DNA from: Prochlorococcus sp. scB245a_519A13 | GTDB taxonomy: Bacteria > Cyanobacteriota > Cyanobacteriia > PCC-6307 > Cyanobiaceae | Reading direction: 5' to 3' | NCBI GenBank assembly: GCA_000634415.1 | Contig: JFNH01000168.1 | Span: forward strand, 1 to 61,322 | Length of the DNA stretch: 61,322 nucleotides | In this document: piece after piece, positions 1 to 9,696 of the stretch | How the letters are laid out: each line of letters starts with the position of its first letter | Numbering within the stretch: the first letter of the stretch is position 1 | Made by a program: the position numbers and the translations under genes | Notes under the pieces: model-generated | What the model was told of the DNA's origin: nothing | The model's database searches: none | Seen by the model: only the letters and a program-made list of their open reading frames with translations

Positions 1-174
1 AGGCGAGGCAACCCAGATCCCTCCCTGTTTATCATTCTGGGATAGGAAATCTTTTTGAATAACTTCTAAAGAAGCCCACCACATTCTTCTGGATGTATCA
101 TCATCCACATATATGGTTTGAACTCCTTTAATTAAAAGCTCTTGAATTTTTTTTATAGTTATTTGTGATTTCAT
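1..174 (-). CDS. Partial gene, N-terminal 58 residues, function not recognised
   Basis: The start codon ATG lies at 174-172 and the gene runs off the left edge. Its first base is shared with the TGA stop of rodA (TGATG on the minus strand), so translation is probably coupled to rodA. The visible part begins MKSQITIKKIQELLIKG, continues with an acidic VDDDTSRRMWW stretch and ends IWVASP, with no signal peptide or membrane segment. A sensory histidine kinase with an N-terminal sensor domain is one possibility from a general impression of picocyanobacterial proteins, but no kinase motif is inside the window. Confidence 0.7.
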   Translation of the reverse strand, partial: MKSQITIKKIQELLIKGVQTIYVDDDTSRRMWWASLEVIQKDFLSQNDKQGGIWVASP

Positions 175-6667: not shown

Positions 6668-6738
6668 GGCGGCATGGCCAAGTGGTAAGGCAGAGGATTG
6701 CAAATCCTTTATCCCCAGTTCGAATCTGGGTGCCGCCT
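6668..6738 (+). tRNA. tRNA-Cys (GCA)
   Basis: Cloverleaf with acceptor stem GGCGGCA (6668-6674) pairing with TGCCGCC (6731-6737) and discriminator T at 6738. The anticodon loop TTGCAAA carries GCA at 6700-6702, specific for cysteine. The T arm is CCCAG-TTCGAAT-CTGGG. CCA is not encoded. The last 26 bases of this gene are repeated at 8663-8688, marking it as the integration target of the downstream element. Confidence 0.97.
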
Positions 6739-6739
6739 T
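6713..6739 (+). repeat. Left attachment-site repeat in the tRNA-Cys 3' end
   Basis: This 27-bp stretch covers the T arm and 3' acceptor strand of tRNA-Cys plus one base. It matches 8663-8689 at 26 of 27 positions; the only difference is G at 6718 versus A at 8668, leaving 21 identical bases in a row (6719-6739). The copies are exactly 1950 bp apart. A direct repeat of a tRNA 3' end flanking DNA is the classic footprint of site-specific integration by a tyrosine recombinase. Since this copy completes an intact tRNA, it is the tRNA-proximal end. Confidence 0.88.
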
Positions 6740-6826
6740 CTTTAAATTAGTAAATAATTTCGCTGAAAAGCGTTCCAAACACAAGAGATTATTGTAGCGA
6801 TTATTAATACTCAAGACGTTTAGAAA

Positions 6827-6847
6827 TGGGCGGTTAGTGGGCGGTTA
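6827..6847 (+). repeat. Left pair of TGGGCGGTTA direct repeats (putative recombinase arm sites)
   Basis: Two exact copies of TGGGCGGTTA occupy 6827-6836 and 6838-6847, starting 11 bp apart, about one helical turn. They lie 87 bp inside the left att repeat. The same tandem pair with the same spacing recurs at 8586-8606. These GC-rich 10-mers stand out in very AT-rich DNA. The paired, evenly phased layout near att sites suggests protein binding, most simply integrase arm-type sites. Confidence 0.8.
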
Positions 6848-6852
6848 ATTTG

Positions 6853-6867
6853 CTGATAAATTATCAG
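6853..6867. promoter_or_regulatory. Perfect 15-bp palindrome next to the left arm sites
   Basis: CTGATAA-A-TTATCAG is a perfect inverted repeat of 7-bp arms around one base, beginning 5 bp after the left TGGGCGGTTA pair. A second inverted repeat, AGGTT/AACCT with a 7-nt loop, follows at 6866-6882. It could be an operator for a regulator or excisionase-like protein, or a small RNA hairpin. No matching palindrome was found at the right end. Confidence 0.4.
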
Positions 6868-6898
6868 GTTTTTTTTGAACCTAGTTTTATTATCTCAT

Positions 6899-6908
6899 TT
6901 ACCGCCCA
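6899..6908 (-). repeat. Inverted arm-site copy at the left end (one mismatch)
   Basis: TTACCGCCCA on the plus strand is the reverse complement of TGGGCGGTAA, matching the repeat TGGGCGGTTA at 9 of 10 positions. It lies 51 bp inside the left tandem pair and faces it, mirroring the inverted copy at 8518-8527 at the other end of the element. Confidence 0.65.
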
Positions 6909-7044
6909 TAGGGAAAGTTTTCTCAATTTTTCCTTAAATCAATATTTGTCTGAAACTTTGAAACATTTGATCTGGATCATCATTTTTAATATTCAATGAT
7001 AATTTATAACCGATGCAAAATCGTAAAAACAAATTATTCTTTTA

Positions 7045-7074
7045 TTGGAAAAATCATTAAAGGTAAAATATAAT
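7045..7074 (+). promoter_or_regulatory. Candidate sigma-70-type promoter for the element cargo gene
   Basis: TTGGAA at 7045-7050 and TATAAT at 7069-7074 are separated by 18 bp and lie 27 nt upstream of the cargo ATG at 7102. This would give a leader of about 20 nt. In DNA this AT-rich a TATAAT match can occur by chance, so support is moderate. It would let the cargo be expressed from within the element. Confidence 0.45.
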
Positions 7075-7101
7075 TAATTTTTAACAATTTAAAAGTTAAA
7101 T

Positions 7102-8412
7102 ATGGATTATTTGGATAGTGAGTTAGAAGACGATATTGATGAAAATCTTTCGGAAGAAGATTTTATTGCCAGCATAGAACATCTCAATAAATGTTTTTTC
7201 GAACTAGATAAATCAGATTTTTCTAATCAAGACATAAAAAATTTAATTGAACAATTTGATGAATTACAGAATAAAGTTATTGAAACAAAGAATGATGGTG
7301 AATATAGAACTAAAGAATTAAGAGAACTTTTTAAAAACTTTATAAATTTTTGTGATGGTAGAGGGCATATTTCTAACATCATAAAATTAACCGCAGATGA
7401 AATAACTGATGAAGATTTTGATAATAGAGATATTAAATTTGTTGATGAAATAACTAATATTGTGCTTCAATTCGCTGGATTTTTGTATTTAAAAGACCTT
7501 CAAGGTTTAAATGAATATCCTCTACAACTTCTGAAACTACTTGAAAAACTATATTTTCTTTACTTTAAATCCTTTGGAATTAAAGGATCGATAGAGAATT
7601 TATTTGGTATTTATTATAATCTCTTTCACGGTAATCCTAATAAGATCAAATTACCAACAGAAATTGATTCAAACTCTAATCAAACCTTCAAATACGAACT
7701 AAAAGAAGGAGAGATGTTTGATGAAAATATAAATGGAAATTCTGCTTACTTTAATTTCCAGTTTAATAAATTAGAAAAAAAATATTTTCAAGAAGAATTC
7801 ACTTTTGATAGTTGGTTTATACAAGAATGTCGTGAAACTGTTGTTTCTATACCTATTGATCAAGAAAGATTTCCAACTCTAGCAAAAGCATATAGAACTA
7901 AATCTCCCAGTGATTTACCTCAGTATTGGGCAAATAATTATCAACAAGCAAAACAAAATTCTAGATACAATAATGTTCCAATTTTTGATGCAAATAAATA
8001 TTTTTTAATCTCAGATCAATATGAGGTTCTTTGGAATGAATGGAACAAACAATTTTTTGATTCTCACCAACAAAGACTTGATAAATTTTTTGAATTGTTA
8101 AATATAGCAACTGATGACGGATCAGAAACTGATGAAGAAAACTTTGATGAGGATTTACAAGAGGGATTTGTCTATCTTATTAGGAATCAAGATATCTACA
8201 AAATTGGCATTACAGAAAATCTATTAAATAGAATGTCTCAACTAGACCCAGATGAAATCATAGATACTATTAAGTGTTCTAATTTTAGGGAAGTTGAAAA
8301 GGATTTACATAGAGAATATAAAGATTACAGAATACCCCAAACTGAATATTTTCGATTAAGTGAAAAGCAAGTCTTAGAAGTTTCAAGAAAACTAAAATCA
8401 ATGGCAAAGTAA
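7102..8412 (+). CDS. Element cargo: 436-residue protein with GIY-YIG-like (T5orf172-type) C-terminus
   Basis: The only gene inside the tRNA-Cys element. Residues 1-60 are very acidic (start MDYLDSELEDDIDENLSEED), and residues to about 350 are a mostly helical region I do not recognise. Residues 354-436 resemble the T5orf172/MUG113 branch of the GIY-YIG nuclease superfamily: GFVYLI (GIY-like strand), YKIGIT (YIG-like strand), Arg377 in NLLNRM, a VEKDLHREYKDYRI helix with H403, and TEYFRL near the end. Family members occur in phages and in defence-related proteins, so nuclease activity is plausible but unproven. There is no signal peptide or membrane segment. ATG at 7102 sits behind a good -10 box without a clear Shine-Dalgarno. 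Codon use is as AT-rich as its neighbours. Confidence 0.82.
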   Translation: MDYLDSELEDDIDENLSEEDFIASIEHLNKCFFELDKSDFSNQDIKNLIEQFDELQNKVIETKNDGEYRTKELRELFKNFINFCDGRGHISNIIKLTADEITDEDFDNRDIKFVDEITNIVLQFAGFLYLKDLQGLNEYPLQLLKLLEKLYFLYFKSFGIKGSIENLFGIYYNLFHGNPNKIKLPTEIDSNSNQTFKYELKEGEMFDENINGNSAYFNFQFNKLEKKYFQEEFTFDSWFIQECRETVVSIPIDQERFPTLAKAYRTKSPSDLPQYWANNYQQAKQNSRYNNVPIFDANKYFLISDQYEVLWNEWNKQFFDSHQQRLDKFFELLNIATDDGSETDEENFDEDLQEGFVYLIRNQDIYKIGITENLLNRMSQLDPDEIIDTIKCSNFREVEKDLHREYKDYRIPQTEYFRLSEKQVLEVSRKLKSMAK

Positions 8413-8517
8413 TTATTTCTTTTAAAGCAAACTAAAGGTTTCTCATAATCACAAAATCCCTTAGGTCTCCACCCCCTTTCATTGAGTAAGGTAATTTTGA
8501 GATGCTTGTTTGTTTTA

Positions 8518-8527
8518 TTAACCGCCC
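8518..8527 (-). repeat. Inverted arm-site copy at the right end
   Basis: TTAACCGCCC is the reverse complement of GGGCGGTTAA, so the nine-base core GGGCGGTTA is exact. It lies 58 bp before the right tandem pair and points toward it, mirroring the copy at 6899-6908. Confidence 0.7.
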
Positions 8528-8585
8528 GAAATTCCTGACGTATAAGTTAATTAAGACCAGAAATTTGCCAAAAAAATAACCCTTA

Positions 8586-8606
8586 TGGGCGGTTACTGGG
8601 CGGTTA
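8586..8606 (+). repeat. Right pair of TGGGCGGTTA direct repeats (putative recombinase arm sites)
   Basis: Exact TGGGCGGTTA copies at 8586-8595 and 8597-8606, again starting 11 bp apart. Apart from the single spacer base (C here, G at the left), the 21 bases match 6827-6847. They end 56 bp before the right att repeat. The position relative to att and the inverted copy mirrors the left end. Confidence 0.8.
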
Positions 8607-8662
8607 GTTGTTAATTATTATTGCTGAAACTGTAGTTATAGTCTTGTTTTCTAGTATTCATA

Positions 8663-8689
8663 CCCCAATTCGAATCTGGGTGCCGCCTT
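8663..8689 (+). repeat. Right attachment-site repeat (fragment of tRNA-Cys 3' end)
   Basis: Copy of tRNA-Cys bases 6713-6739 with one change (A at 8668), which would break a T-stem pair. The sequence upstream shows no similarity to the rest of the tRNA, so this is a 3' fragment and not a second tRNA. It marks the distal end of the inserted element. Confidence 0.88.
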
Positions 8690-8897
8690 ATTTAATTTTT
8701 TTACGCATTTAATTATGAAGTTTTCTAAGAACTTCAATTGCAAATAAAAAGTATAAAGTTTCAATTACTTATTGATTAATAGAAAAATAATCTTTTCTTT
8801 ATTATTGATAAATAATACCTTATATCCATTGATAAAAAAACTACATGGATTTATTAATAATTTTCATCAGATTATTTATATAAAAATTTGAATTATT

Positions 8898-9065
8898 TTA
8901 GTAATCATTATCTGCTACACACATTCCTAAACATCTAACACCATTTGATGCAGTCCTTTTGCAATGATTACATAAAATGGGATCTTTCTCAGAAGTAAGG
9001 TTAATTTTTGAATTATTTTGGTCTTTGAAACTTATTAACTCTTCTGTTGAATCAATTAGAGTCAT
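8898..9065 (-). CDS. Small cysteine-rich protein with zinc-ribbon-like knuckles
   Basis: About 55 residues starting MTLIDSTEELISF and ending with CNHC and a CLGMC segment (LCNHCKRTASNGVRCLGMCVADNDY), four cysteines spaced like a small zinc-binding knuckle. The start is uncertain: ATG 9065-9063 gives a 14-nt overlap with the upstream gene, and ATG 9077-9075 (MIPRM) is also possible. It could instead be the C-terminus of the upstream gene separated by a frameshift, but no homopolymer run marks an obvious slip. Co-transcription with the 9052-9696 gene is likely. Confidence 0.6.
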   Translation of the reverse strand: MTLIDSTEELISFKDQNNSKINLTSEKDPILCNHCKRTASNGVRCLGMCVADNDY

Positions 9066-9696
9066 TCTTGGGATCATAACTTGAATTGATACTAACAACA
9101 AGTGAAGCATTTGTGTTGGAAGAGGGTATATCCATAATTTTTACAGTTTCTTTAGGCTCATCAATAACTTGATTTTCTTCAGTACTCTCATCTACAGCAC
9201 AAGCTTCAAGAGCCTCTCTAAGTAGTGAATCAAAAGTTGCTCCAGGCAATCTATGTCTAGCAACCTCAAGAAAAGTTCTCGGTAAGGATTCAGATGCAGC
9301 ATCTCGTAAAGCAGGATTATTCTTTCTATGTTCTTGTTCTTCTTCTATTGATTTAATAAACCTTAGTGTGACATCTCTTTTGGTTGAGGCTTTTATCAAC
9401 GTATCATTTTCAGGATTGCTAACTTTAGGCTCATTTTCAAGATCACTAAGTCTTTTTTCCAAACTATTTAAAACTTCATTAGCTTCTTTACTGATATGAG
9501 CTAATTGACCATCAGACAAATTAGGTAAATCAGCGACAAAAACTTTCCCATGATCCCTTAGTGTCAAGAAAGTTGGTCTAGGGCCTTGAGCCTGCCTACC
9601 AATTGATTCCGAATTATTACCTGTTGGTCTTTTTGGAGGTGTTGGGCCAGCTGAACTACGTCTACGTGTAATTCTTTGATTATTTGCAAAGGGCAT
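9052..9696 (-). CDS. Conserved-looking hypothetical protein, helical and charged
   Basis: A protein of 214 residues with a basic, Pro-rich N-terminus (MPFANNQRITRRRSS, then TPPKRPTG). A middle part, VFVADLPNLSDGQLAHISKEANEVLNSLEKRLSDLE, suggests a coiled helix, and the tail is low-complexity and acidic. No enzyme motif, membrane helix or signal peptide is visible. ATG start at 9696-9694. It overlaps the small Cys-rich gene downstream. A GC-rich palindrome lies 33 bp upstream. I do not recognise the family. Confidence 0.7.
   Translation of the reverse strand: MPFANNQRITRRRSSAGPTPPKRPTGNNSESIGRQAQGPRPTFLTLRDHGKVFVADLPNLSDGQLAHISKEANEVLNSLEKRLSDLENEPKVSNPENDTLIKASTKRDVTLRFIKSIEEEQEHRKNNPALRDAASESLPRTFLEVARHRLPGATFDSLLREALEACAVDESTEENQVIDEPKETVKIMDIPSSNTNASLVVSINSSYDPKNDSN

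Follow-up and report, generated by a model that had tools for sequence, protein, structure and literature searches.

A one-gene insert at tRNA-Cys

The DNA examined here (the window) is the 61,322-nucleotide contig JFNH01000168.1 of Prochlorococcus sp. scB245a_519A13, part of a 1.15-Mb assembly of 222 contigs that is 67% complete. At its tRNA-Cys gene lies an insert which the evidence supports as a 1,950-bp site-specific integrated element with one gene and without a recombinase (Table 1). A sequence-only reading had described a duplication of the tRNA 3' end here, and the description proved accurate: bases 6713-6739 recur at 8663-8689, 1950 bp away, with a single mismatch in 27 (CCCCAG versus CCCCAA), and ARAGORN finds the tRNA intact on the left side. 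The direct repeat extends over 36 nt (6713-6748 and 8663-8698; 92% identity), and TTCGAATCTGGGTGCCGCCTT is found at two places in the window when up to three mismatches are allowed (0.00 expected from 100 shuffles). The single gene reported between the repeats was also borne out, its product containing no recombinase, replication or capsid domain.

The half site left of the right core departs from the tRNA by one base here (CCCCAA for CCCCAG) and by more in many other elements, in which identity with the tRNA begins at TTCGAAT. These seven bases (6719-6725) form the loop enclosed by the T-stem inverted repeat, which makes strand exchange over a 7-bp overlap at this place the natural reading; from what is generally known of tyrosine recombinases, TTCGAAT is likely to be that overlap.

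Each end of the insert carries a paired 10-bp direct repeat, TGGGCGGTTA-N-TGGGCGGTTA, with a period of 11 bp, together with a single inverted copy; these are the structured, GC-richer end repeats that had been noticed earlier. With up to one mismatch the 10-mer occurs six times in the window, every time within the element, against 0.95 expected. The pair (up to three mismatches) is absent from the rest of the 1.15-Mb assembly, and with up to two mismatches it is present in nine of 266 genomes of the genus, the window's own included. In seven of these nine (G003, G071, G079, G086, G087, G098, G113; G numbers denote surveyed genomes and L numbers loci) the pair lies within the tRNA-Cys locus, while in the ninth, G021, it is found on a contig that also holds a copy of the core and the conserved neighbour gene. 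Direct-repeat pairs some 60-110 bp either side of a core look like arm-type sites of lambda-like integrases, and an integrase presumably binds them.

Table 1. Annotated features of the tRNA-Cys locus in the window.
Feature	Position	Strand	Remarks
tRNA-Cys (GCA), intact	6668..6738	+	ARAGORN; 3' part forms the left attachment site (attL)
attL core TTCGAATCTGGGTGCCGCC	6719..6737	+	19 bases; starts in the T loop and stops just short of the tRNA 3' end
Left arm pair TGGGCGGTTAGTGGGCGGTTA	6827..6847	+	starts 90 bp inside the core
Single inverted arm copy, left	6899..6908	-	one mismatch; L+162 (G086 element: L+160)
Cargo gene	7102..8412	+	436 aa; sole long gene between the repeats
Single inverted arm copy, right	8519..8528	-	one mismatch; R-150 (G086 element: also R-150)
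Right arm pair TGGGCGGTTACTGGGCGGTTA	8586..8606	+	starts 83 bp inside the core
Right attachment site (attR)	8663..8687	+	element-derived half site CCCCAA plus core TTCGAATCTGGGTGCCGCC (8669-8687)
Right host flank	8688..9051	.	directly behind the tRNA-Cys 3' end in empty-site genomes
Conserved neighbour gene	9052..9696	-	214 aa; right anchor of the survey

Ends shared with a recombinase-bearing element

In genome G086, the sequence of which is that of Prochlorococcus AG-436-O11, the same tRNA holds a 7.1-kb element that encodes a predicted tyrosine recombinase. The ends of this element resemble those of the window insert (genome G000) at 80% identity over 172 bp on the left and 87% over 151 bp on the right, and the arm repeats are placed alike: counted inward from the left (L) and right (R) cores, the direct repeats lie at L+89/100 and R-83/72 in G086 and at L+90/101 and R-83/72 in the window, with all offsets, direct and inverted, equal within 2 bp. 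The earlier suggestion that the insert borrows its recombinase is well supported by this element with the same ends.

The gene for the 462-aa integrase of G086 adjoins the right end, with genes for a GIY-YIG protein and a serine resolvase further inside. Because the protein has no Pfam match, its structure was predicted with AlphaFold2 (AF2; predicted local distance difference test score, pLDDT, 82.7; predicted template modelling score, pTM, 0.53); a PHROGs search with four integrases gave no significant match either (best E 0.018). Foldseek placed Tn1549 Int first (E 4e-5), followed by XerH and by lambda Int at E 2e-3, with three chains at E <=0.001. VIA, in rows that cover mostly integrase residues 107-450, gave Z scores of 15.4 to an S. 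aureus integrase domain and 15.0 to lambda Int, the latter at 9.6-10.1 A over 320-328 residues; the template modelling (TM) scores of these rows are modest (0.2-0.35 by query, 0.35-0.60 by target), as expected if the domains are placed differently. When the integrase is aligned with five related proteins, the columns without variation include R285, R393 and Y431; most of the proteins also have a lysine in the expected loop, the G053 protein being an exception. In keeping with PMC10187409, we take these residues to be the catalytic ones. The N-terminal part is taken for an arm-binding domain from its modelled strand-strand-strand-helix order.

A protein with the Pfam Resolvase domain is encoded in all three integrase elements found at tRNA-Cys (G086, G158, G238). 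The G238 element is like G103 in its motif, with a weak match at the right end (71% over 91 bp), and beside its integrase gene is a 428-aa protein (L091:11899-13182) with a sub-threshold match to DruA of the Druantia defence system (E 0.0065). Outside attR of the G086 element (locus L080; L271:9690-9775), a second left end, of another arm family's type, directly follows the integrase element as a tandem remnant. Relatives of the G086 integrase occur in 8 of the 266 genomes, and none was found in the window's own, 67% complete assembly. Among named genomes, relatives are found in both Prochlorococcus and Synechococcus; a tRNA-Cys or tRNA-Phe core lies within 350 bp of the integrase in 14 of 19, and in 11 of those 14 an arm pair stands between the two.

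Empty sites and a population of small elements

A search for tRNA-Cys gave matches in 205 of the 266 genomes, and the locus was counted in 176 of them; the remaining 29 are G053, G257 and 27 left out by listing order and short contigs. G053, G257 and one contig of G021 lack a full tRNA-Cys at this locus and stand outside the 176. At 34 loci a copy of the tRNA 3' end precedes the conserved neighbour gene, delimiting 36 elements (two each in G003 and G024). Three of these loci carry an integrase (elements of 7131, 9458 and 9508 bp), while 33 elements without one, 190-2618 bp long and with differing cargo, occupy the other 31. The remaining loci comprise 92 that are empty-like, 43 with an insert but no recognisable attR and seven that reach a contig edge; an element-like left end opens the insert in 42 of the 43 and in six of the seven.

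When the tRNA and the right flank of the window are joined, 82 of the 92 empty-like loci align with the resulting sequence across the junction; each alignment covers 375 bp or more of the 435, and the best reaches 95.2% identity. Insertion is precise and polymorphic. A short trace of the left end is kept in 16 of the empty-like loci and the other 76 are clean.

Arm pairs (9 of 10 positions matching, period 11, at L+80..105) were found in 26 of the 34 attR loci, 13 of the 43 attR-less loci, six of the seven contig-edge loci and none of the 92 empty-like loci; in control windows they appeared in 1/34 and 0/34 attR loci and in no locus of the other classes. We grouped the arms into the families TGGGCGGTTA/TGGGCGGTAA, GGATGGTAAG, TGGACGGTAA, TGGTCGGCAA, TGGTAGGAAA, TGGACAGCAA and GGTAGGTGAG. 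For the first two, BLAST matches both ends to those of an integrase element (A, G086; B, G158), and the named integrase locus L278 has arms like those of the TGGTAGGAAA family, by motif only. Tandem arrays occur in G003, G024 and G021, a further left end stands behind attR in nine of the 34 loci, and the elements of G250 and G117 each combine the ends of two families; such extra and mixed ends are what tandem integration and deletion would give. Taken together, these comparisons outline a genus-wide population of small elements with several arm-sequence families, scattered presence and tandem arrays. Two cargo-less elements, of 190 bp (G003_2, the second element of L074) and 196 bp (G059, L197), have the look of a left end joined to a right end at the arm repeat.

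Nine proteins from other elements were scanned, and they include Poly_export, TPR proteins, a hydrolase-like protein and some without a match, along with sub-threshold cases (a DUF805-like protein just under the cut-off, and zinc-ribbon matches). Several small tRNA-Cys elements have a Poly_export gene (L077:2884-4134 in G050, and its relatives) as their main cargo, and in many genomes related genes also lie away from tRNA-Cys. The ratio of non-synonymous to synonymous substitution rates (dN/dS) for this cargo, 0.24-0.49 over 15 pairs of six elements, indicates purifying selection.

A second site at tRNA-Phe

Integrase relatives in G182, G134 and G137 adjoin tRNA-Phe. Among 20 tRNA-Phe regions that we picked for inspection, five have a copy of the tRNA 3' end 0.8-1.5 kb away, with arm pairs on both sides in G108, G264 and G102, on one side in G110 and on neither in G100; an integrase relative is absent from all five genomes. 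The tRNA-Phe region of G250 shows an arm pair and a shift of about 1 kb in the position of the neighbour, but no 3'-end copy at up to four mismatches. The tRNA-Phe loci, e.g. L244 (G182), L262 (G108) and L259 (G264), display the same two-tier pattern of integrase elements and small arm-bearing inserts. Counts of tRNA-Phe matches were dropped as a quick proxy, as second and third matches (E ~2e-4) were too common for 3'-end copies and are probably other tRNAs.

Cargo of the window element

The C-terminal domain of the cargo protein (residues 355-431) is T5orf172/MUG113, of the GIY-YIG superfamily. The full-length protein is unmatched in every other one of the 266 genomes, whereas the domain has some match in 207. 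We regard the protein, in which an orphan N-terminal part precedes the GIY-YIG-type nuclease domain, as most probably a passenger of use to the host or to the element; a role in anti-phage defence is a weak possibility. A match to the candidate defence model PDC-S57 is confined to the C-terminal domain, and the best relative of this part (63%) is at L248 (G182:C15), about 1.5 kb from tRNA-Asn.

Evidence on movement

The presence of an element requires 26 changes on a host-flank tree with 31 occupied and 81 empty leaves, compared with 27.5 +- 1.8 for shuffled labels, and hence tracks the host tree no better than chance; the tree was built with FastTree from one 1.8-kb flank and scores the three integrase elements as occupied and part of the 16 traces as empty. 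At least one end could be aligned in 108 element pairs. In 31 of these the better-matching end surpasses the hosts' coding flank in identity, with a margin above five points in 18. The elements of G059 and G060 are 97.7% alike where the coding flank is 88.1%; the right ends of G020 and G104 agree at 96.0% over 200 bp (flank 73.0%), the left ends of G072 and G060 at 93.7% over 189 bp (flank 85.3%) and the right ends of G072 and G179 at 98.8%, the comparable flank here being just 128 bp. In a set of 29 pairs that we picked by hand, 25 were comparable, with at least one end above the flank in 12 and none in 13. At the level of these sequences, some horizontal spread, with scattered presence, is apparent.

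A probable passenger cassette moved in trans

We consider it probable that the insert is a non-autonomous cassette, mobilised in trans, of the integrase element that targets tRNA-Cys and tRNA-Phe, consisting of a compound attachment site and one cargo gene. The sequences establish its core, its arms, the precise empty sites and the ends in common with a recombinase-bearing element; mobilisation in trans is likely, and a circular intermediate and a vehicle between cells would have to be part of it. In the mechanism that we propose, the tyrosine recombinase would come from a larger sister element of the G086 type (7.1 kb) with matching ends; it would bind the paired 10-bp arms at both ends and the core derived from the tRNA T-stem and T-loop, and would excise the cassette as a circle. 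The circle would then be joined into the tRNA-Cys 3' end in another cell, with the 19-bp core rebuilding the tRNA at each integration. For the genus as a whole we lean, with less assurance, towards a two-tier system of ocean picocyanobacteria, in which a rare integrase element accompanies a roughly tenfold commoner pool (33 versus 3 at tRNA-Cys in this survey) of 0.2-2.6 kb cassettes, moved in trans, stacked in tandem and each defined only by the tRNA core and family-specific arms.

Several results weigh against this interpretation. Excision, a circle and transfer were none of them seen, and the exact element with its cargo is known from one genome only, which leaves the case for its own mobility to its relatives. 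In 77 of the 108 pairs no alignable end surpasses the hosts' coding flank in identity, and recent transfer can therefore be seen in only a minority; among the 18 clear cases, some depend on alignments of 40-60 bp, and the elements of G003 and G108 are 82-83% alike where their flank is 96.7%. By the test used, eight of the 34 attR loci lack an arm pair, and six of the 36 attR cores are weak, with three mismatches. No helper was identified for families D and F (arms TGGTCGGCAAG and TGGACAGCAAG), and no relative of the G086 integrase was found in any of the 31 genomes with small elements only, many of whose assemblies are incomplete. The sequence-only reading had also raised the possibility of packaging by borrowed means, such as a helper phage provides for satellites of the PICI/PICMI type, and nothing was found for it: IMG/VR contigs yielded no relative of the exact arm pair and, in protein scans that reach close relatives only, none of the G086 integrase or the cargo, and 50,697 phage records yielded no match to the helper integrase or cargo proteins.

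The principal rival is that these inserts are frozen remnants, i.e. full integrase elements that lost the integrase and most other genes by deletion in place and are now inert, being inherited vertically or lost; we think this unlikely. Decay is common, as the persistence of left ends in attR-less inserts and of traces at empty-like loci attests, the 190-bp and 196-bp elements have the appearance of end fusions, and a co-resident helper was nowhere seen. What argues against remnants is that 33 integrase-less elements keep both copies of the tRNA end while differing in cargo (they were picked for attR and give no rate), that the left arm pair is likewise retained at most attR loci, and that the Poly_export cargo is under purifying selection. 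Closely similar Poly_export elements of 1782-1800 bp, moreover, recur in four genomes of separate hosts whose common clade contains 62 empty-like loci, with four changes, and the G059/G060 pair reflects spread of the small form, or else of a parent that left similar ends twice.

We give very little credence to a minimal tycheposon, to which class the insert had been assigned earlier. The genus and the class of tRNA target fit, and tycheposons have cargo and tyrosine recombinases (PMC10872708), but the recombinases with matching ends fit the tRNA-Phe/tRNA-Cys family, which is reported to be distinct from tycheposon integrases (PMC10187409), and 1.95 kb falls below the 4-200 kb given for tycheposons (PMC10872708). 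Vertical core DNA, which without empty alleles would have told against the earlier reading, is refuted by the empty sites (92 of 176 loci, 76 without a left-end trace), and together with a chance repeat it deserves practically no weight, given also the 0.00 repeat matches expected and the full-length cargo in one of 266 genomes; nothing was found in favour of either.

Relation to known systems

Flamholz, Biller and Kelly (PMC10187409) report a Prochlorococcus and Synechococcus integrase family encoded next to tRNA-Phe or tRNA-Cys, frequently close to a small serine recombinase, which is distinct from the integrases of tycheposons and of virion-encapsidated integrative mobile elements (VEIMEs) and whose mobilisation mechanism is described there as not yet known. 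The G086-type integrase fits this family in its tRNA target, its resolvase neighbour and its lack of a recognised family match; the first two of these features recur in the helpers described here. The published element is defined by its integrase, which the window element lacks, but the target tRNA-Cys and the ends common to G086 link the two. Within its accessible text, PMC10187409 describes no integrase-less versions, attachment cores or arm repeats. Nor did we find the integrase-less population, the cores or the arm repeats in the open-licence literature, a scope outside which the Cell 2023 tycheposon paper falls; the 'cryptic elements' of that paper could overlap with the small-element population.

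Among other mobile elements, cis-mobilisable elements (CIMEs) are described as keeping attL and attR without integration genes and as standing in tandem with related elements (PMC5704250), much as the window element and its relatives do. They are decayed integrative and conjugative or integrative and mobilisable elements (ICEs, IMEs) that move in cis with a conjugative partner, whereas the elements here measure 0.2-2.6 kb and no helper was seen co-resident; Pfam found no conjugation gene among 30 proteins (10 each from G086, G158 and G238), many of which have no match at all. Miniature inverted-repeat transposable elements (MITEs) and the cassettes of clusters of attC sites lacking integrases (CALINs) are, by the account in PMC11389934, hitchers that are recognised by a DNA motif while the enzyme is made elsewhere, and in this the window element is like them. 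MITEs are about 300 nt long, have the terminal inverted repeats of a transposase element but no protein genes, and are moved by a transposase, and CALINs use attC sites; the window element, by contrast, has direct arm pairs, a tRNA core and one protein gene, and implies a tRNA-site tyrosine integrase with lambda-like arms.

Significance

Searches based on integrases miss most of the elements described here, as no integrase is present at 31 of the 34 loci that have a 3'-end copy, and the core, the arm repeats and the helper-passenger pairs make the mechanism of the published integrase element directly testable. If the two-tier system is real, it would work in the manner of integron cassettes, docking at a tRNA 3' end with lambda-like arms for a ticket, and would deliver single genes to streamlined genomes. 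Poly_export cassettes may in this way feed variation in surface polysaccharides. Prochlorococcus genomes are streamlined, yet their gene content varies between cells, and recombinase-free, one-gene cassettes at tRNA genes would explain part of this variation.

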